Source of the DNA: Gemmatimonadota bacterium
GTDB taxonomy: Bacteria; Latescibacterota; UBA2968; GCA-2709665
Reading direction: 5' to 3'
NCBI GenBank assembly: GCA_028877215.1
Contig: JAPPFJ010000035.1
Location: 1-64,000, forward strand
Length of the DNA stretch: 64,000 bases
Under the pieces are notes generated by a model that had not been told where the DNA came from, did not search any database, and was given only the letters and a program-made list of their open reading frames with translations. A program made the translations under genes and the position numbers. Positions 5,250-17,782 of the stretch are shown piece by piece. How positions within the stretch are numbered: the first letter of the stretch is position 1; each line of letters opens with the position of its first letter.

Positions 5250-7535
5250 TCAACTCATCAATCGCCGCAGCCACGCCTTGCCGCGGCCTTCGCGCTGTTT
5301 GACCAGCATCACTGAAGTCTTGGCGAATCGCCCGACCCGGTCGGGCACCTCACCGAACAGGAGTTGCTGGAAAAGGCCGGTATCGGCCGAACCCATCACG
5401 ATCAGATCGAATTCCACTCCTGCCCTGACGATCCCCGCGGGTACGGACCGGGATCGGATCGCGCGGCATTCCACGTCGCCCAGATTCGCGTTCTTCAGGG
5501 TCTGATCGATCCACCCCATGGCCTCCCTCTCCCGCTCGGCGTCCGCATCTTCGGGTATCACGGAGCATGCCGTCACGCGTGAGCCGTAGGCCGCGACGAT
5601 CGGCTCCAGCAGCTCAACGGCGAACCGCGTATGGGGTCCGCCGGCCGTTGGCAGCAGAATGCGATCGAACCGGGCCTGGTCCTGCAACTTGACAACCGCC
5701 ACGTCCGCGGTTGCCCGGTTCACCACCCTGTCGAGCACTTCGCCAAAAATCCGCTCACGCGTGGTCGTAAATCCCTTCCATCCGATCACCAGCAGGTCCG
5801 CGTGCTCGTCCGACACCGCCGACAGAATGCCTTCGTCCACGCGGTGCGCCACGCGAATGTCCGAAACCACGCGGAGGCTCTGCTTCTGCGCGTAGGCCTG
5901 CGCTGTTCGCAGCAGCGGCATCCGGTGGTTGATGTACTTCATCCCTTCCTGGATGGGCAGCTGTATTGGCACCTCCACGGTGGTATTGACGATCAGGTCG
6001 CCGTTCCTCGCTTTCGCGATGGGTATGGAGATATCCAGCAGCGATTCGATCGTACCCGGATTGGCTACGGGTACCATGACCCTGTAGGGCGCGCGGGCGG
6101 TCTCCAGGGGCAGCGCGTCCAGCACGTGGGGCTCGGCCTCGCCCGATTCCTTCCGGAAATGGATGGTGTACGCGAAAAACCCCGCCACGATCCATACCAG
6201 CGCGACGTACCAGGCCATCGGATCGAAACGAAACTGGTAAACCGCCAATAGCATATTCGAAGCCGCGCCAAGCAGCGGCAGCCACGGGAAGAGCGGCACT
6301 TTGTACCTGCGCTCGATTTCCGGCATCCGGCGCCGCAGGACGAGCAGCGACAGGTTCACGAGCGTAAACGTAAGCAGGAACATCAGGCTTGCCGCCGACC
6401 CGACCACGTGGATGGGCAAGAGCAGCGCGATGCCGGTCAGAATCGCGCCGGTGACCAGAATAGCGATGTGCGGGGTCCGCCTGTCGGAATGAATCGCAGC
6501 CATACCCACCGGCAGCCACCGGTCCCTGCCCATCGAGAAGGCCACGCGGCTGGAGGCCAGCACGGTCGCGTTCAGCGCGGACATCGTGGAAAGCAACCCG
6601 CCGAAAACGATGGTTGCCACGCCGAACGCCGGCATGAAGCTGTCTGCCGCCTTCACAATCGCCGTTTCCTGGTACCGGCCCAGAAATTCCCACGACGTGG
6701 TGGCCTCCGGTTGGACCGCACCCAGCGACACAAAGACGATCAGCAGATAAACGACCACGGTTACGCCAAGGGAAATGAACGTGGCCTTGGGAATATTGAT
6801 CTCGGGCTGTTTGATTTCTTCCGCGACCGTGGCTATGAGATCGTACCCTTCAAAAGCGATGAACGTCAGTCCCATGGCCACCAGCACGCCCCCTAGTCCC
6901 TTCGGGAAGAAGGGAGAGAAGCTCTTCGCCGCCTGGACGGGCGTCGCGAAGATATGCACCAGTCCGAACCAGACGAAAACCAGAAGCACGAGGATCTTGG
7001 AAATGGTGATCACGTTCTCCGCCTTGCCCGTGACCTCCGTGCCGCGCACGTTCAGCCAGACAAAGACGCAGCTTACGATCACCGTGACGAACGCAACAGA
7101 CGGCTGAACCCCCGTCGTCGCCTGGATCGTATAGCTGACGTCCGGCAGATACTTGTGGAAAAACTCCCAGAAGTAGCCTGCAAATCCAAGCGCATAGAGG
7201 CTGCACGCCACCGTATAGGCGAACCAGAGCATCCAGCCGGACAGAAACCCCACCGGACCGGGAAACGCCTTCTTGACGAACGAATATCCACCGCCGGCCT
7301 CTGGAATCGCCGAGGCGAGCTCGGCGTAGCAGAACGCCGTCATCAGCGTCACGAGGCCGTTCAGCGCAAATGCCAGAATTGACGCCGGCCCCGCCTCGCC
7401 GGCGGCAATCCCGGTCAGGACGAAGATCCCCGCGCCGATCATCGCGCCAATGCCGATCATCGATGCATCGAAGCAACCCAGACTCCTGGCAAATGTGACC
7501 CTGTTGGATTCCGGCGGAAGGGAGGATACTGCCAC
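5250..7535 (-). CDS. APC-superfamily amino-acid permease fused to two USP domains
   Basis: A membrane transporter of about 761 residues. Roughly the first 450 residues form an APC permease with about 12 hydrophobic segments; the first helix contains MIGIGAMIGAGIFVLTG, the family hallmark. Two universal-stress-protein-like domains follow, one at about 465-600 ending near LLVIGWKGF and one at about 615-745 containing LIVMGSADTG. This order is known for CAT-like permeases. I choose the GTG at 7535, preceded by GAGGT. An upstream GTG at 7580 would sit in the loop of a terminator-like hairpin. Neighbours suggest uptake of an amino compound consumed by the adjacent hydrolase and dehydrogenases. Confidence 0.88.
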   Translation of the reverse strand: MAVSSLPPESNRVTFARSLGCFDASMIGIGAMIGAGIFVLTGIAAGEAGPASILAFALNGLVTLMTAFCYAELASAIPEAGGGYSFVKKAFPGPVGFLSGWMLWFAYTVACSLYALGFAGYFWEFFHKYLPDVSYTIQATTGVQPSVAFVTVIVSCVFVWLNVRGTEVTGKAENVITISKILVLLVFVWFGLVHIFATPVQAAKSFSPFFPKGLGGVLVAMGLTFIAFEGYDLIATVAEEIKQPEINIPKATFISLGVTVVVYLLIVFVSLGAVQPEATTSWEFLGRYQETAIVKAADSFMPAFGVATIVFGGLLSTMSALNATVLASSRVAFSMGRDRWLPVGMAAIHSDRRTPHIAILVTGAILTGIALLLPIHVVGSAASLMFLLTFTLVNLSLLVLRRRMPEIERRYKVPLFPWLPLLGAASNMLLAVYQFRFDPMAWYVALVWIVAGFFAYTIHFRKESGEAEPHVLDALPLETARAPYRVMVPVANPGTIESLLDISIPIAKARNGDLIVNTTVEVPIQLPIQEGMKYINHRMPLLRTAQAYAQKQSLRVVSDIRVAHRVDEGILSAVSDEHADLLVIGWKGFTTTRERIFGEVLDRVVNRATADVAVVKLQDQARFDRILLPTAGGPHTRFAVELLEPIVAAYGSRVTACSVIPEDADAEREREAMGWIDQTLKNANLGDVECRAIRSRSVPAGIVRAGVEFDLIVMGSADTGLFQQLLFGEVPDRVGRFAKTSVMLVKQREGRGKAWLRRLMS

Positions 7536-7550
7536 TGGGACCTCGGTCTG

Positions 7551-7591
7551 AAAAGCAAAAAGGCCAGGGACGCGAGACACGCACCCCTGGC
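7551..7591 (-). terminator. Intrinsic terminator between TIM-barrel gene and permease
   Basis: On the minus strand, GCCAGGG and CCCTGGC (plus-strand arms 7563-7569 and 7585-7591) form a 7-bp stem with a 15-base loop, followed by CTTTTTGCTTTT. It lies just after the stop codon of the gene ending at 7611 and so would separate it from the permease. The long loop lowers confidence. Confidence 0.5.
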
Positions 7592-10906: not shown

Positions 10907-11191
10907 GTCGAAAACTCGATCGTATACCCATCGCGCCCCCTGCGGGATATAATGCGCGCACAGTCGCGCGAGCGGATTTGACGGTTAAGGTTTCGAAGCG
11001 CGAATCCGGATGAGTATCGTCGAGTAGGCGGGCAACGACTCTGCGATTGTCCCGCCCGTCTGCGTCCGGAAAACTCCCGTTCCCGGAGCCGGCAGCGATC
11101 TTGAGCAGCCCACAGGCGTTACCTGGCGACCGAACGACGGTGATTTGCAGTTTATTCTGTCGCTTTCAAACCGGTTTGAGTGAGTCTCCCG
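10907..11191. other. Intergenic leader of the efflux operon
   Basis: About 285 bases between the divergent uppP unit and the efflux operon. It holds an imperfect inverted repeat, GGCGGGCAA at 11027-11035 and TTGTCCCGCC at 11047-11056 (one bulged base), which could form a leader hairpin. I see no convincing -35/-10 pair and no open frame with a start site. Confidence 0.4.
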
Positions 11192-13552
11192 ATGCTACGA
11201 GTTGCTATAACGGTCGCTGTCATACTTCGGCTGATGTGGCCGCCATGTCCGGCCGGGGCTCAGATCGACAAACGCCACGTCCATATTGGTCTGCTACTGG
11301 ATTTTTCGGCGACCGCAATCGATACCGGGAATAGACTCGCTCAATTGAAGGAGGAAATACACAAAGTACTCGGGACCGAAAAGTCAGTCCACTTCCTTCC
11401 CGAACACATCCACTTTTCGGCTGAGCTTGCAGACTATCTTTCGTTGGTCAACGACACGGCGGTCGATCTGATTATCGCAGTCGGCCCGGCAAGCGCCGGG
11501 ATCCTGACGGCGCACGGAGACTTTCCGAAACCGTCGATCGCCGTTGGAATACTGGACGCCGAACTACAACAGATTCCCCTTGCCGAACCCGGCGTCTCCG
11601 GCATACGCAATTTCACCTATGTCCTCAGCGCACATCCGCTCCGGAAAAATCTGGAGGCGTTCAGACGCATCCATCCGTTTCGACATCTGGCCGTCATCGT
11701 AAGCGGATACCTGAGAGACAGGCCGGGACTGGAGCGTTTTTTCGGACGTCTGGTATCCGCTTACGGGGCTGAGTTGGAATTGGTTTTCTGGCGTTCGGAC
11801 GAGGCCCTGCCGGCGCTGACCGACGCAGTCGACTCGGTCTATCTGGCGATGGTCCTGGACAGGACGCCCGATGAGATCGCCCGGTTGGCGGCATTCCTTG
11901 TCGATCGAAAGCTGCCGTCCCTTGCCCTGAGCCGGTCTTTTGTGGATGCGGGGATGATGGCGTGCATCGGCAACGAGAACGGCCAGGATCTGATCATCCG
12001 CAATCTCGCCCTGATCGTGGAGGCAGTCGTGCTGGGAGAGGATCTTTCGGCGATGCCGGTACGGCGCAATCTCGACGATCAATGGGTGCTGAATGCGGCA
12101 ACGGTTCGCCGAATCGGTCTCGACCTCCCCTTTGAAACGCTGTTTTCCGCCCGTTTCCTTCACGTCGACGAACCCACGGCCGATCGGCGCTTCAGCTTAA
12201 GTGAAGTCATCGCGGAGGGTTTGAAAACCAACCTCGACCTGCGTCTCGAAAAACGCAGCGTTGATTTGGCCGATCAGGACATCCGCCGAGCCAGATCACC
12301 CCTCCTGCCCACCTTAGACGCCTCGACCACGATATTACAGATCGATCCCGACGTCGCCGAATCGGCTCGCGGTCAACAGCCGGAGCGGACAATAACGGGA
12401 ACGGGGACTGTACAGCAGGTGATATTTTCGGAACCGGCCTTCGCCAACGTCGAAATACAGCGCTACCTGGCCGAAGCCGCCCGACATCGCGCCGATCTCG
12501 TCGCGCTCGACGTTGTGCTGAACCTTGCCACATCCTATTTCGATATCCTTCTGGCAAAGACCGGCGCACGCATCCAGGATGAAAACCTCGAGGTCTCTCG
12601 CCGCAATCTTAAGATTGCCCGAACCAGAAATTCAGTCGGCTATGCCGGCGTCGCCGATGTATTCCGCTGGGAGAGTGAAGTAGCCAGGGCCACCCAGGCA
12701 TCAATTGAGGCGTTCAACAACGTCTACCTGGCCAGAGTACAACTCAACCGATTGCTCAACCGGACGGATATCGGCGAGGAGTTCGAGGTGGAGGACGCCC
12801 GGCTCTCTGACGCACTCTTCGACCGCTTCGACCCGGCACGCATCGGTCCGCTGATCGACCGGGCAGGCGACGTGGAAATCCTCACCGACTTTCTCGTCGA
12901 AGAGGCTCTGCGGAACATGCCTTCGCTCAAACAGCTGGCGGCCAATATGAAAGCTGCCGAACGCCAGCAGCAGATGAATCGCCGGCTGTACTACCTGCCT
13001 ACCGTGGCCTTGCGCGGAAAGGCCGACTACACTTTCTGGCGCGGCGGCAGGGGAGTGCCTGCGGTCTCCTCCGATCCTGACAGAGGCACCTGGAACCTGG
13101 CCCTGAACTTCACCTATCCCCTCTTTCAGGGCAATAAGCGTAAGATCGCCATCGACAAGACCGCGATTCAGCAGCAGCAACTCCGCCTTCAGGAGGAAAG
13201 TCTGCGCCAGCAGCTCTCCCAGGCCGTCCGGGTGCGGATGACGAACCTGGTATCCAGGCGCACCAATATACACTTTGCCGGCGTGGCGGCTGAGAGCGCC
13301 AGGAGAAACTTCGACCTGGTTCAGAACGCCTATCAGAATGGGCAACTGGAAAACGCCCAACTTGTGGATGCGCAGCGGGTCGCCCTTTCCGCCCGTCAGG
13401 CCGAAGCCGCGGCCGTTTACGAATACCTGGTCAGCTATCTGCAGCTGGAAAACAGCATTGGAGGCTACACCATGTTCATGACTTCAGAGGAGCGGGAAGC
13501 CTTTATCGGGCGCCTGACGAACTTCTTCTCCGTAAGGAAGCGTTCACAATGA
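11192..13552 (+). CDS. TolC-family outer-membrane protein with N-terminal ABC substrate-binding-like domain
   Basis: About 786 residues. After a signal peptide (about 1-24) comes a periplasmic-binding-protein-like region (about 25-330) with alternating strands such as VDLIIAVGPASAGIL, LAVIVSGYLRD and SVYLAMVLDR, resembling the ABC-type 'TrpX-like' binding family. Residues about 345-780 are a TolC-type channel with two long coiled-coil-rich repeats, including YFDILLAKTGARIQDENL and LQLENSIGGY. Ordinary TolC proteins are about 450 residues, so the fusion is unusual. I prefer the ATG at 11192; a GTG lies four codons upstream. Its stop overlaps the next start by 4 bases, so this is an operon with adaptor and pump. 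The binding domain may sense or recruit the substrate. Confidence 0.85.
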   Translation: MLRVAITVAVILRLMWPPCPAGAQIDKRHVHIGLLLDFSATAIDTGNRLAQLKEEIHKVLGTEKSVHFLPEHIHFSAELADYLSLVNDTAVDLIIAVGPASAGILTAHGDFPKPSIAVGILDAELQQIPLAEPGVSGIRNFTYVLSAHPLRKNLEAFRRIHPFRHLAVIVSGYLRDRPGLERFFGRLVSAYGAELELVFWRSDEALPALTDAVDSVYLAMVLDRTPDEIARLAAFLVDRKLPSLALSRSFVDAGMMACIGNENGQDLIIRNLALIVEAVVLGEDLSAMPVRRNLDDQWVLNAATVRRIGLDLPFETLFSARFLHVDEPTADRRFSLSEVIAEGLKTNLDLRLEKRSVDLADQDIRRARSPLLPTLDASTTILQIDPDVAESARGQQPERTITGTGTVQQVIFSEPAFANVEIQRYLAEAARHRADLVALDVVLNLATSYFDILLAKTGARIQDENLEVSRRNLKIARTRNSVGYAGVADVFRWESEVARATQASIEAFNNVYLARVQLNRLLNRTDIGEEFEVEDARLSDALFDRFDPARIGPLIDRAGDVEILTDFLVEEALRNMPSLKQLAANMKAAERQQQMNRRLYYLPTVALRGKADYTFWRGGRGVPAVSSDPDRGTWNLALNFTYPLFQGNKRKIAIDKTAIQQQQLRLQEESLRQQLSQAVRVRMTNLVSRRTNIHFAGVAAESARRNFDLVQNAYQNGQLENAQLVDAQRVALSARQAEAAAVYEYLVSYLQLENSIGGYTMFMTSEEREAFIGRLTNFFSVRKRSQ

Positions 13553-14679
13553 AGCGAGGGTTCATGTCAAAGCGAAAACTGGTGTTCTGTCCCGGAATGC
13601 GAAAAGCTGCGTGGGCTCTTCTCGCAGCGACGGGCATGTGGACCGGCTGCGGCGACGAACCACAGGTTGCCGAACCCATTCGCCCTGTAAAATACGCCGA
13701 AGTCCGTCCCGCCAGCGCCGTCCAGAGCCAGCGATTTGCCGGCACAGCCAAAGCCGGCATTGAAGCCAGGCTCAGCTTCAGAACAGGTGGGCTTATCGAA
13801 TCGATCCACGTCAAGGTCGGCGACAGGGTTCATGCTGGTCAGCGCATTGCCACCCTCGACAGCCGGGATGCGGTCCTCGCGCATCAAGGGGCCAAAGCGG
13901 CGCTGGAAAACGCCAGTATGCAAAAGGCCAATGCCCAGTCCAGGCTCATACGCGTGCGGCAGCTCTACCAGGCCGACAATGTCTCCCTCGCCGAGTACGA
14001 ACAGGCCAAAAACGGCTTTGCCTCGGCCACTTCCGGCTACGAATCGGCCCGGAAGAGTCTGGAATTGCAGGGGCGCCAGCTGGGATACAATGAGATTCAC
14101 GCCCCTGTCGCCGGCATCGTCACTGCGGTCCACAACGAGGTCAACGAAGTGATCCAGGCGGGTTCACCCCTGGTGGAGTTGAGCGCGGGCGAGGATATTG
14201 AAATGGAGGTAGGGGTGCCGGAGGGCTATATCGCCCAAATTCAGACCGGTCAGCCGGTGCGCGTGCGTTTTTCGGCCCTGCCCGGACTGAATTTTGCGGC
14301 CCAGGTGCGCGAGATAGCATACGCGCTTGATGCCTCCAGTACGTATCCGGTCATTGTAAAACTCGACGCCCCCTCCCCGGCAATCCGGCCCGGGATGGCC
14401 GGCGAGGTGGAATTTCGCTTTGGCGCCGGCGAGCCGTCGGAGGACCCGCTTGTGGTGCCCGTTAAGGCGGTTGGCGCAGACGCCAACGGCCAATATGTCT
14501 TTGTCATAGACGCGGTTGACAATGGCATGGGGACGGTTCACCGTCGGCCAATTCGGGTCGGCAAACTGGTTGCAGATGGTTTTCTCGTGGAAGAAGGGCT
14601 TGCCGAACGGGAGCTGGTCGCGACCGCGGGCCTCAGATCGCTATTGAACGGGATGCAAGTCCGCCTTTTGCAAGAGTGA
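13549..14679 (+). CDS. RND efflux periplasmic adaptor (HlyD/MFP family)
   Basis: A 376-residue membrane-fusion protein linking an RND pump to its TolC channel. The N-terminus is a signal sequence with a Cys (GMWTGCGDE) that may be lipidated, although the lipobox is imperfect. The lipoyl/barrel-sandwich halves are seen at GLIESIHVKVGDRVHAGQRIATLD and EIHAPVAGIVTAVHNEVNEVI, flanking an alpha-hairpin at about 105-175. A beta-barrel and membrane-proximal domain follow. The start overlaps the TolC stop by 4 bases and follows AAGGAAG, indicating translational coupling. Confidence 0.9.
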   Translation: MKRGFMSKRKLVFCPGMRKAAWALLAATGMWTGCGDEPQVAEPIRPVKYAEVRPASAVQSQRFAGTAKAGIEARLSFRTGGLIESIHVKVGDRVHAGQRIATLDSRDAVLAHQGAKAALENASMQKANAQSRLIRVRQLYQADNVSLAEYEQAKNGFASATSGYESARKSLELQGRQLGYNEIHAPVAGIVTAVHNEVNEVIQAGSPLVELSAGEDIEMEVGVPEGYIAQIQTGQPVRVRFSALPGLNFAAQVREIAYALDASSTYPVIVKLDAPSPAIRPGMAGEVEFRFGAGEPSEDPLVVPVKAVGADANGQYVFVIDAVDNGMGTVHRRPIRVGKLVADGFLVEEGLAERELVATAGLRSLLNGMQVRLLQE

Positions 14680-14707: not shown

Positions 14708-17700
14708 ATGAACCTCACACAAATCGCCCTGGAAAATAACCGCGTCACCATCGTGGTGTTGCTCGTCGTTGTGCTGTTGGGCTCAGTCGGCTATCAGACG
14801 ATGCCGCGTGACAGTATGCCTCCCTACACGGTCCGCGTCGCATCGGTGGTGACTGGCTTTTCCGGCGCCGGTCCCGAGCGGGTCGAAGCTCTGATCACCA
14901 GCAGGATCGAAGAAGCCGCGCAAGAGTTGCCCGAACTCGAAACCGTCTCCAGTGAATCACGGACTGGACTGTCGGTAGTGTCGGTATCACTCAAACAGGA
15001 AGTACCTCCGGACAAACTCCAGGCCGTATGGGACCGATTGCGCCGCAAGATTGAGACCATCCGCCCGGACCTGCCCGAGAGCATCCGTGGCCCCGAGGTC
15101 AAGGACGATGGGGTCGGGGTGGTGTACGGCATTGTGATCGGTCTGACCGGGGATGGTTTCACCTTTGCTGAACTGGAGTCCTACGCAAAGGACCTGAGAG
15201 ACGACCTGATAAAGCTGCCAGATGCTGCCGAGGTCAAGATTGGCGGCATTCAGAAAGAACGGATCTACCTGAAATTCAACGACGCCCGGCTGGCCGATTT
15301 GGGCCTCTCGGCGCAAAAAATCAAGAACAGCATTGCCAGCACCAACATCGTTTTTTCCGGCGGTGAAGTCAGCCTGGAGGATGAACGCCTGGTGCTCGAA
15401 CCGACCGGCAGTTACGCAGACCTGGACGAACTGGGGAGGACATTGATTTCAGTAGGCAAGGACGGGAGCGTGTACCTTGGCGATGTAACCCGCATCGTGC
15501 GGACCTACGAGACGCCCCGGCAACGCCTGGTCAAGATCAACGGTCAGCCGGGGCTGTCGCTCTCGGTGGCGCTCAGCGTCGGGGCCAACATCATCAAGTT
15601 GGGTGAGGAGATCGACCAGCTGGTAGCCCTCCACCAGGCGCGGCTGCCTCTGGGCATAACGCTCAACAGAGTGGCTTCCCAGGACTTTGAGGTAGAGAAA
15701 TCGGTCGACAATTTCACCAACAATCTCTTGCAAAGCGTCGCCATCGTGCTGTTGTCCATGCTGATCTTTTTGGGACTGCGCACTGGCCTGGTGGTAGCCA
15801 GCCTCATTCCCATGACCATTGTCGCGACCCTTTTCGTCATGGGGATACTCGATATCGGTCTCAATCAGGTGTCGCTGGCGGCGTTGATCATGGCGCTGGG
15901 CATGCTGGTGGATAATGCCATCGTGGTGTCCGAGGCGATCGTGGTCAAGATGGAAAAAGGCACCGACGCCAAAGAGGCTGCCATTGAATCGGCTCGGGAA
16001 CTGGCCGTACCGCTTTTGGTCTCTTCGCTGACCACTTCAGCCGCGTTCCTGTCCTTCTTTTTGGCTGCGTCCATCATGGGCGAGATGATGGGGCCGCTGT
16101 TCAGTGTGATTACCATAGCCCTGCTTTCTTCCTGGGTGCTCTCCCTAACCATGGTCACTTTGTTGGCGGTGTTTTTCATCCGGGTGAAACGTCAAGCATC
16201 CCAGTCCGGGAAAAGCACTTTTATCGATCGTCTCAACAGCCAGTATAAAGAACTGCTCCTCAAGGCCCTTGGTCGCTCCTATTCATTTATGGGGATCATC
16301 GCCGGTTTGTTTGTATTGTCGCTTTTCGGCTTTGGTTTATTGCCGTTCATCTTCTTCCCCGACAGCGAGCGCAACTTATTGACGGTAAATCTGAATTTGC
16401 CCCTGGGCACCAAGATTGAGACGACGACTGCCCGGGTGGAACGGCTCGAGTCGTATATTGCGGATAGCCTCCTGGTGAGCAAAAACCGCCAGCGCGGGGT
16501 AACGGACTGGGCGACCTTTGTCAGTGAGGGGCCGCCCTCATACGATCAGGGTTATCAGTCGGGCGAAGCCAACTCCGGGTACGCCCATATGTTGCTCAAT
16601 ACCAGTTCGGGCGACGACAACCAATGGGTCATTGACCGTCTGGATGCCTTTTGCTTCCGCTCCTTTCCCGATGCCGACGTGCAGGTTTCGAGGTTGGCCG
16701 GAGGCGGTGGCGGCAGAGACGTGGCAGTGCGAATTACAGGGCCGGACCCCAACGAGCTGTTCGGCCTGGCTGAACGCGTCAAGCAAAAACTCAACGAAAT
16801 CTCAAGCGCGCAGAATATCGGCGACGATTGGGGGCCCAAGATCAAGAAAGTCGTCGTGGACATCGACCAGTCCAGGACCCGGAACGCCGGCCTGACCAGC
16901 CAGGATATCGCCCTTTCGTTGCAGACCGCACTCACGGGGTTCAATACGGGAGCATTCCGCGAAGGCGATCAGAGTCTCCCCATAATCCTGCTCAACGAAA
17001 GCAGCCAGAATGTGGATGTGCGCCAACTGGAGAGCATTAACATCTACGCCCAGAGTTCCGGCGAAAACGTGCCGCTGGGACAAGTGGCCCAGATCGTACC
17101 TGTCTGGCAACTCGCCAAGATCAAACGGCGCGACCTGTACCGCACCCTGACCGTGACCTGCGACGCCAAGAGCGGTTTTACGGCGCAGGATATCACCGAC
17201 GAACTCTTCCCGTGGCTCGAAGAAGACAGCGAATCGTGGAAGCAGGGCTATCGCTACGAGTTGGGCGGCGAGTCGGAACAAAGCAGCGAGGCCATGAGTG
17301 CGGTGGTCGCCAAACTGCCTCTATCCGGCTTTATCATTCTCGCGCTGTTGATTGTCCAATTCAACTCCTTCCGCAAGACCTTTATCGTGTTGAGCACCAT
17401 TCCTCTTGGTCTGATCGGTGTCATTGCCGGATTGCTTATCTTTCGCTCGTTCTTTGGTTTCTTCGCCTTTCTCGGATTGATCTCACTGGCCGGTATCGTC
17501 ATCAACAATGCGATCGTACTCATAGATCGCATACAGATCGAACTGGACCGATCCGGGCGGGCGTCTGTCGAGGCAATAGTCACCGCGGCTCAGCAACGCT
17601 TTCGCCCCATCCTGCTGACCACGTGTACGACGACATTGGGCCTTGTCCCCCTCTATCTGGGCGGTGGGTTGATGTGGGAGCCGTTGGCGTTGGCTATCAT

Positions 17701-17782
17701 GGCGGGTTTGCTGTTTGCCACTGTGATCACCTTGTTGTTCGTGCCGGTGCTTTACAAGATTCTCTTTGCAGTCGAGAACTGA
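14708..17782 (+). CDS. RND multidrug/solute efflux permease
   Basis: A 1024-residue inner-membrane pump of the HAE1/AcrB type. The first helix and docking-domain start are at the N-terminus. TM4 carries LGMLVDNAIVVSEAI with the proton-relay Asp, followed by the family stretch LVSSLTTSAAFLSFF; the second half repeats the topology (SLAGIVINNAIVLID, TTCTTTLGLVPLYLGGG). Two large periplasmic loops at about 40-330 and 555-850 complete the fold. It is the third gene of the efflux operon. The substrate cannot be told from sequence; the unusual TolC partner suggests something other than a generic drug pump. Confidence 0.93.
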   Translation: MNLTQIALENNRVTIVVLLVVVLLGSVGYQTMPRDSMPPYTVRVASVVTGFSGAGPERVEALITSRIEEAAQELPELETVSSESRTGLSVVSVSLKQEVPPDKLQAVWDRLRRKIETIRPDLPESIRGPEVKDDGVGVVYGIVIGLTGDGFTFAELESYAKDLRDDLIKLPDAAEVKIGGIQKERIYLKFNDARLADLGLSAQKIKNSIASTNIVFSGGEVSLEDERLVLEPTGSYADLDELGRTLISVGKDGSVYLGDVTRIVRTYETPRQRLVKINGQPGLSLSVALSVGANIIKLGEEIDQLVALHQARLPLGITLNRVASQDFEVEKSVDNFTNNLLQSVAIVLLSMLIFLGLRTGLVVASLIPMTIVATLFVMGILDIGLNQVSLAALIMALGMLVDNAIVVSEAIVVKMEKGTDAKEAAIESARELAVPLLVSSLTTSAAFLSFFLAASIMGEMMGPLFSVITIALLSSWVLSLTMVTLLAVFFIRVKRQASQSGKSTFIDRLNSQYKELLLKALGRSYSFMGIIAGLFVLSLFGFGLLPFIFFPDSERNLLTVNLNLPLGTKIETTTARVERLESYIADSLLVSKNRQRGVTDWATFVSEGPPSYDQGYQSGEANSGYAHMLLNTSSGDDNQWVIDRLDAFCFRSFPDADVQVSRLAGGGGGRDVAVRITGPDPNELFGLAERVKQKLNEISSAQNIGDDWGPKIKKVVVDIDQSRTRNAGLTSQDIALSLQTALTGFNTGAFREGDQSLPIILLNESSQNVDVRQLESINIYAQSSGENVPLGQVAQIVPVWQLAKIKRRDLYRTLTVTCDAKSGFTAQDITDELFPWLEEDSESWKQGYRYELGGESEQSSEAMSAVVAKLPLSGFIILALLIVQFNSFRKTFIVLSTIPLGLIGVIAGLLIFRSFFGFFAFLGLISLAGIVINNAIVLIDRIQIELDRSGRASVEAIVTAAQQRFRPILLTTCTTTLGLVPLYLGGGLMWEPLALAIMAGLLFATVITLLFVPVLYKILFAVEN

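Follow-up and report, generated by a model that had tools for sequence, protein, structure and literature searches.

Can the exit duct of an export system carry a receptor of its own? One gene in the window, the whole 64,000-nucleotide stretch of DNA analyzed here, raises this question: its predicted product begins like a periplasmic binding protein and ends like TolC. TolC channels are trimers, and the outer-membrane channel is usually viewed as a duct that the adaptor opens. Clamshell binding-protein domains are normally used by bacteria for catching nutrients.

A binding-protein domain in front of a TolC-family channel

The fused ORF spans positions 11180–13552 of the forward strand, 790 aa counted from a GTG at 11180. 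An ATG at 11192, where the starts of the homologues also align, gives a protein of 786 aa. The gene is the first of an OEP–adaptor–RND operon, directly followed by the adaptor and pump genes, and the start of the adaptor gene overlaps its stop by four bases:

11192–13552, + strand: complete fused gene, 786 aa, a single frame also in relatives
11192–11263, + strand: type I signal peptide (...PAGAQ), residues ~1–24, without lipobox, read by eye
11273–12160, + strand: type-I substrate-binding-protein domain of the ABC_sub_bind/TrpX kind, periplasmic, residues ~28–323 (profile, AF2 model, PF04392)
12161–12196, + strand: short interdomain linker, residues ~324–335, the gap from the model range to the OEP start, with low pLDDT
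12197–13462, + strand: TolC-family channel domain with two OEP repeats, residues 336–757 (PF02321, PDB, Foldseek)
12197–12760 and 12890–13462, + strand: the OEP repeats of the fused gene (PF02321)
13549–14679, + strand: RND periplasmic adaptor, or membrane fusion protein (TIGR01730, 232.8 bits, cut-off 94.9; PF16576, E 1.1e-22)
14708–17782, + strand: RND inner-membrane pump, 1024 aa (PF00873, E 2.3e-158)

A scan upstream of the fused gene found no promoter on its strand. Among 34 fused proteins scanned, none shows the lipobox pattern within its N-terminal 60 residues.

Taken by itself, the N-terminal part of the window protein scores 14.6 bits (E 0.019) against PF04392 (ABC_sub_bind), under the cut-off of 25.9, and as a single query against the PDB sequences it gave one weak relevant match, 6hni (E 0.035). 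Among nine fused relatives, four pass the PF04392 cut-off (L055, L059, L021, and L022), two stay below it, and three give no hit up to E 1; the cut-off is also passed by the Sulfuricurvum kujiense homologue described below. A profile of 16 fused N-terminal domains matched 3lkv (E 3.1e-12), 3lft (1.5e-7), and 6hni (9.2e-7) in the PDB and no other entry at E ≤ 0.01. In extracts of PMC6816091, these binding proteins carry phenylalanine, tryptophan, and tyrosine as ligands. The AlphaFold (AF2) model of the isolated domain (pLDDT 77.3, pTM 0.70) found the same three entries as its best VIA matches: 3lkv (Z 22.1, rmsd 4.3, 275 aligned), 3lft (Z 21.1, rmsd 4.5, 277 aligned), and, third, 6hni (Z 20.7, rmsd 4.8, 275 aligned). 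They were followed by a half-size relative (Z 16.4) and by other type-I folds (Z at most 14.7).

Since the profile, the model fold, and the PF04392 passes among relatives point the same way, we assign the N-terminal part to the type-I substrate-binding folds, ABC_sub_bind/TrpX kind; the copy in the window has diverged. PF04392 alone would miss it in its own genome, as a search there returned no match at E ≤ 0.001. The TrpX equivalog model NF041285 (cut-off 390 bits) gave no hit up to E 1 in the window; among four relatives, two had scores, of 22.2 and 32.9 bits. A preliminary description of the gene had proposed an ABC-type binding-protein domain in front of TolC; profile and fold bear this out and place the domain at residues ~28–323. 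The readings that it had set against its own, a divergent repeat of TolC or a low-complexity linker, were checked and are ruled out by the profile and the predicted fold.

PF02321 (OEP) matches the C-terminal part in two stretches within residues 336–757 (154.9 bits, cut-off 22, E 2.7e-45), and a PDB sequence search with the channel returned TolC-type chains (best E 2.1e-14). The whole protein scores 119.6 bits against TIGR01844, the TolC subfamily model, below its cut-off of 225.15. The full-length AlphaFold model is poor (pLDDT 59.9, pTM 0.35, low-confidence linker); it retrieved TolC chains on top in Foldseek, and placing the domain on the channel from it was given up because of its quality. 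The remainder of the protein is therefore, as had been suggested, a channel of the TolC family in a tripartite pump operon, given PF02321 and the neighboring adaptor and RND genes. Like other outer membrane factors (PF02321; TCDB 1.B.17), the protein has two OEP repeats and shares an operon with an adaptor and an RND pump. However, its 786 aa exceed the 472 ± 30 residues that an extract of PMC4827864 gives for the family, because of the N-terminal binding-protein domain. Eight OEP proteins are encoded in the window's own genome, and only this one has a frame of fused length. Almost certainly, the gene encodes an outer-membrane channel of the TolC family whose N-terminus carries a secreted domain of the ABC_sub_bind/TrpX fold, without a lipid anchor.

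Two other genes of the window deserve mention. The RND pump (14708–17782) reads VDNAIVV and INNAIVLID where AcrB has VDD and the proton-relay lysine, and its energetics may differ from those of AcrB. A 776-aa frame at 5250–7580 appears by eye to be an amino-acid permease-like protein with universal-stress-protein domains at its end.

Distribution and partners of the fused gene

A contig scan located six loci with 74–84% identity over the whole protein, in genomes filed as Gemmatimonadota/Gemmatimonadetes or Latescibacterota/Latescibacteria. In a survey of 386 genomes, 35 match the N-terminal profile at E ≤ 0.001: 14 in the window's phylum, six with fused frames elsewhere (706–839 aa), and 15 weaker ones (E 5e-13 or worse) whose matches are stand-alone or other proteins. 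The 14 are found among 64 genomes of the window's phylum; 13 have frames of 768–829 aa and one (G007) a remnant. The latter is a 128-aa frame (L024:9519–9830) that covers only the N-terminal ~100 residues of the domain and has a sulfatase gene nearby, as in L022, apparently what is left of a lost fused operon. At E ≤ 1e-20 the profile matches 16 of 80 genomes in the phylum of G235, 4 of 44 in that of G151, and one of two in that of G304. The matches in the G235 phylum correspond to 17 places; at four of them the frame is shorter than 700 aa, and three of the four lie at the edge of a contig. Since the lists of these three phyla and of the window's phylum do not include G121, G270, and G180, the fusion is present in at least five phyla. 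This junction recurs in many genomes, so that a chimeric assembly or chance join is ruled out.

L092:7721–9652, in a single-contig genome, is a 644-aa fused frame with a shortened channel half, and the gene is possibly broken. G428 carries a second, diverged fused paralogue (L103:5545–8226) with ~120 extra N-terminal residues and an adjoining adaptor gene, without an RND gene.

We compared the neighborhoods of 31 fused loci. An RND gene is adjacent, on the same strand, at 21 of them (three of these are cut by contig ends), and L023 has RND remnants. Three loci have an adaptor without RND (L057 and L060, where the contig ends, and L103, where it continues), two end at the contig (L005 and L102), and four have neither adaptor nor RND despite flanks of at least 6 kb (L055, L058, L092, and L096). 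Gene order varies, the channel being first or last. The search for fused homologues and their operons advised at the outset thus yields a family across several phyla, mostly beside adaptor and RND genes.

The RND pump was also used as a query (E ≤ 1e-200) against 18 genomes. None of the six genomes without an intact fusion match (G001, G003, G005, G006, G007, and G025), and 8 of the 12 fusion-bearing genomes do, six beside the fused gene and two elsewhere (G121 and G270). In these two, the closest RND relatives are located elsewhere than the fused gene, and no intact unfused channel was found beside them; locus L071 stops at a contig end. G021, G235, G151, and G180, all fusion-bearing, gave no match, which weakens the argument for operon coupling; G021 has kept the fusion next to just broken pieces of an RND gene. 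From these counts, pump and fusion have mostly been gained or lost together in the window's own lineage.

A fused homologue also exists in a cultured bacterium. SULKU_RS13415 (WP_041667226.1), on plasmid pSULKU01 of Sulfuricurvum kujiense, is an 803-aa protein with both domains above the Pfam cut-offs, and it shares the same two domains and 27% identity across 740 residues with the window protein. In contrast to the RND genes of the window operon, its operon encodes an HlyD adaptor and an ABC-2 exporter. The public annotation of SULKU_RS13415 names the binding-protein half only, a blind spot by which the fused protein is filed under that half alone. As the strain is cultured, the domain is open to expression and screening.

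A search with only the channel half (E ≤ 1e-25) gave matches in 14 out of 147 genomes, every one of them in a frame of 706–829 aa. We built a tree from 29 fused channels, leaving out L003, L004, L005, L092, and L055, and six of the seven unfused channels of the window's genome; the seventh, L124, had no hit to the channel profile. A branch with a support of 85 separates the fused channels from the unfused ones. Judging from these comparisons, the fused proteins form a family and not a recurrent accident; more than one origin is still compatible with the tree. In five pairs and by two methods, dN/dS was 0.15–0.28 for the N-terminal domain and 0.08–0.14 for the channel, the domain evolving about twice as fast. 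As these values are low in each half, both are, by this measure, kept by purifying selection, the N-terminal domain more loosely.

Conserved residues and a possible ligand

Conservation was counted in 29 fused domains, after removal of the near-identical L003, L004, L005, L011, and L013 from 34, and compared with seven stand-alone relatives; a wrongly chosen frame of L052 was removed from an initial eight, and it still contributes to the stand-alone counts at the two specificity positions. Four residues are characteristic of the fused set and found in none of the seven stand-alone proteins: D37 (29/29), S136 (28/29), K113 (26/29), and Q126 (23/29). P114, N140, G254, G282, N301, and T304 are present in all 29 fused and all seven stand-alone domains, and G98 is, together with D37, P114, and N140, among the family-invariant residues. 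The three solved binders (3lkv, 3lft, and 6hni) have in their second lobe a D-N motif with a role in contacting the ligand; "DN" occurs in that stretch in only one of 29 fused domains. The positions responsible for the choice of side chain in the solved binders, S247 and Q265 of the window protein by alignment, vary among the fused set, and naming a ligand from the pocket residues was dropped for this reason.

The fused domain thus shares fold and profile with the ABC_sub_bind/TrpX proteins (PF04392; 3lft, 3lkv, and 6hni) but differs from them in being joined to a channel, in having lost the D-N motif, and in its own invariant residues. The fused-specific D37, K113, and S136 and the loss of the D-N motif make a TrpX-type ligand unlikely. 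The conservation pattern fits a clamshell with its own, non-TrpX ligand; it also fits a clamshell turned into an interface. The binding proteins of ABC importers have a permease and an ATPase as partners; the genes in the window operon with the fusion are those of an adaptor and an RND pump.

Stand-alone genes of the ABC_sub_bind type were found in several other contexts. At L063:4970–10086 such a gene is flanked on one side by the gene of a TonB-dependent receptor and on the other by that of a HAMP-HisKA-HATPase histidine kinase, an arrangement that looks like a sensing unit. At least five are clustered at L061:3177–11709, adjoining a dCache-HAMP-cyclase gene. On an Aureimonas plasmid (L131:3701–6930), one comes right after a SpoIIE-type phosphatase gene, with a response regulator near. 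As stand-alone genes of this type adjoin signaling genes elsewhere, a sensing role becomes plausible for the fusion.

Possible roles of the domain on the duct

As TolC channels are trimeric, each channel would carry three clamshells. The tether of about 12 residues to the N-terminal end of the channel domain would hold them outside the duct, on its periplasmic flank near the equatorial ring. In the mechanism that we propose, the ligand of the clamshell is a small molecule from the periplasm, which need not be an amino acid, and the two lobes close around it. Closure would alter the docking of the channel with the adaptor, or its opening by the adaptor, and the pump would thereby be switched at its exit end according to the content of the periplasm. 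The steps of this proposal differ in strength. That the domain binds a small ligand is somewhat more likely than not. That ligand binding regulates the channel is a tentative suggestion, for which we see somewhat less than an even chance. Our preferred reading of the domain, a ligand-responsive module on the outer-membrane duct that would set docking or opening, falls somewhat short of an even chance. In its favor are the identity and fold of the domain, the preservation of the fusion across phyla, the adjoining RND genes, purifying selection on both halves, and the residues specific to the fused family. Against it count the lost D-N motif, the variable specificity positions, the faster evolution of the N-terminal domain, the four loci that have neither adaptor nor RND gene beside them, and YbjP, which binds E. 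coli TolC at about the same site and is reported to lack an allosteric or signaling role. The fusion accompanies RND pumps as well as an ABC-2 exporter, and for this reason its site of action is probably the channel and adaptor side, and its task probably not the supply of a single pump. In its most general form, in which these proteins are a widespread family of ligand-gated export ducts, each protomer having its own clamshell receptor through which a periplasmic molecule sets the engagement of RND or ABC-2 ducts, the proposal is possible but doubtful.

The main rival is structural. The binding-protein fold would have been reused, without a ligand, as a bulky collar that holds or stabilizes a non-lipidated channel in the envelope, a service that the lipoprotein YbjP may render to TolC of E. 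coli. A close known arrangement is the TolC–YbjP complex of Escherichia coli, in which a globular periplasmic partner sits on the outside of the channel in a 3:3 ratio (extracts of PMC13095208 and PMC13082787). YbjP is a separate lipoprotein, whereas the fused partner is covalently joined to the channel and its fold is that of a ligand-binding protein. According to the extract of PMC13082787, YbjP sits near the equatorial domain of TolC, its linker runs along the TolC N-terminal helix, and an allosteric or signaling role is unsupported. The lack of a lipobox in the fused proteins, the missing D-N motif, and the faster evolution of the N-terminal domain are all in keeping with a collar. However, a whole two-lobed clamshell with invariant D37, G98, P114, and N140 exceeds the needs of a spacer, and the other seven channels of the window's genome do without such a long frame. 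We regard a purely structural role as unlikely, though a serious contender.

Alternatively, the domain might capture the substrate of the pump in the periplasm and pass it to the adaptor or pump, in the manner of CusF, which is said to hand its substrate to Cus. The fold is that of a solute-binding protein, and at most loci adaptor and pump are encoded in the same operon. Yet the entry sites of the inner-membrane pump are far from a domain tethered to the channel, and the fusion also partners an ABC-2 exporter, which makes delivery to one type of pump unlikely. Both points render feeding of the pump less likely than an action on the channel and adaptor, and we consider a substrate catcher quite improbable. 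It is more improbable still that a single chain is made and then cut, releasing the binding protein from an otherwise ordinary channel. In favor of cutting, the models give the short linker low confidence, but the 14 strong channel matches all lie in fused-length frames, which indicates that the covalent link is kept, and no version with two separate genes came to notice. That the N-terminal part is no binding-protein domain but a diverged repeat of TolC, a linker of low complexity, or the result of misassembly has a negligible probability, since against the low PF04392 score of the window protein stand the agreement of profile, fold, and many genomes.

The arrangement, a ligand sensor on the exit duct, had initially been taken, with reserve, as new. 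The role of sensor is an inference, and the D-N motif of the solved aromatic-amino-acid binders is lost. Searches of open-access full text, covering the theme and the solved relatives of the domain, brought up no description of the fusion; PMC7565204 contains both Pfam numbers, and InterPro or UniProt may list the combination without comment. The novelty stands in this sense, but the window gene is not a one-off, as it belongs to a family found in several phyla. Each part is known by itself; joined, and conserved in this form across phyla, they make a novel version of the tripartite exporter.

A receptor-type domain has thus been kept in the channel over several phyla and with two kinds of energizing pump. 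The question of whether the exit duct itself senses the content of the periplasm becomes directly testable. If the proposed ligand-responsive role is true, these bacteria would have a regulatory layer on the outer-membrane component of their exporters, one that depends neither on transcription nor on the substrate sites of the pump itself.
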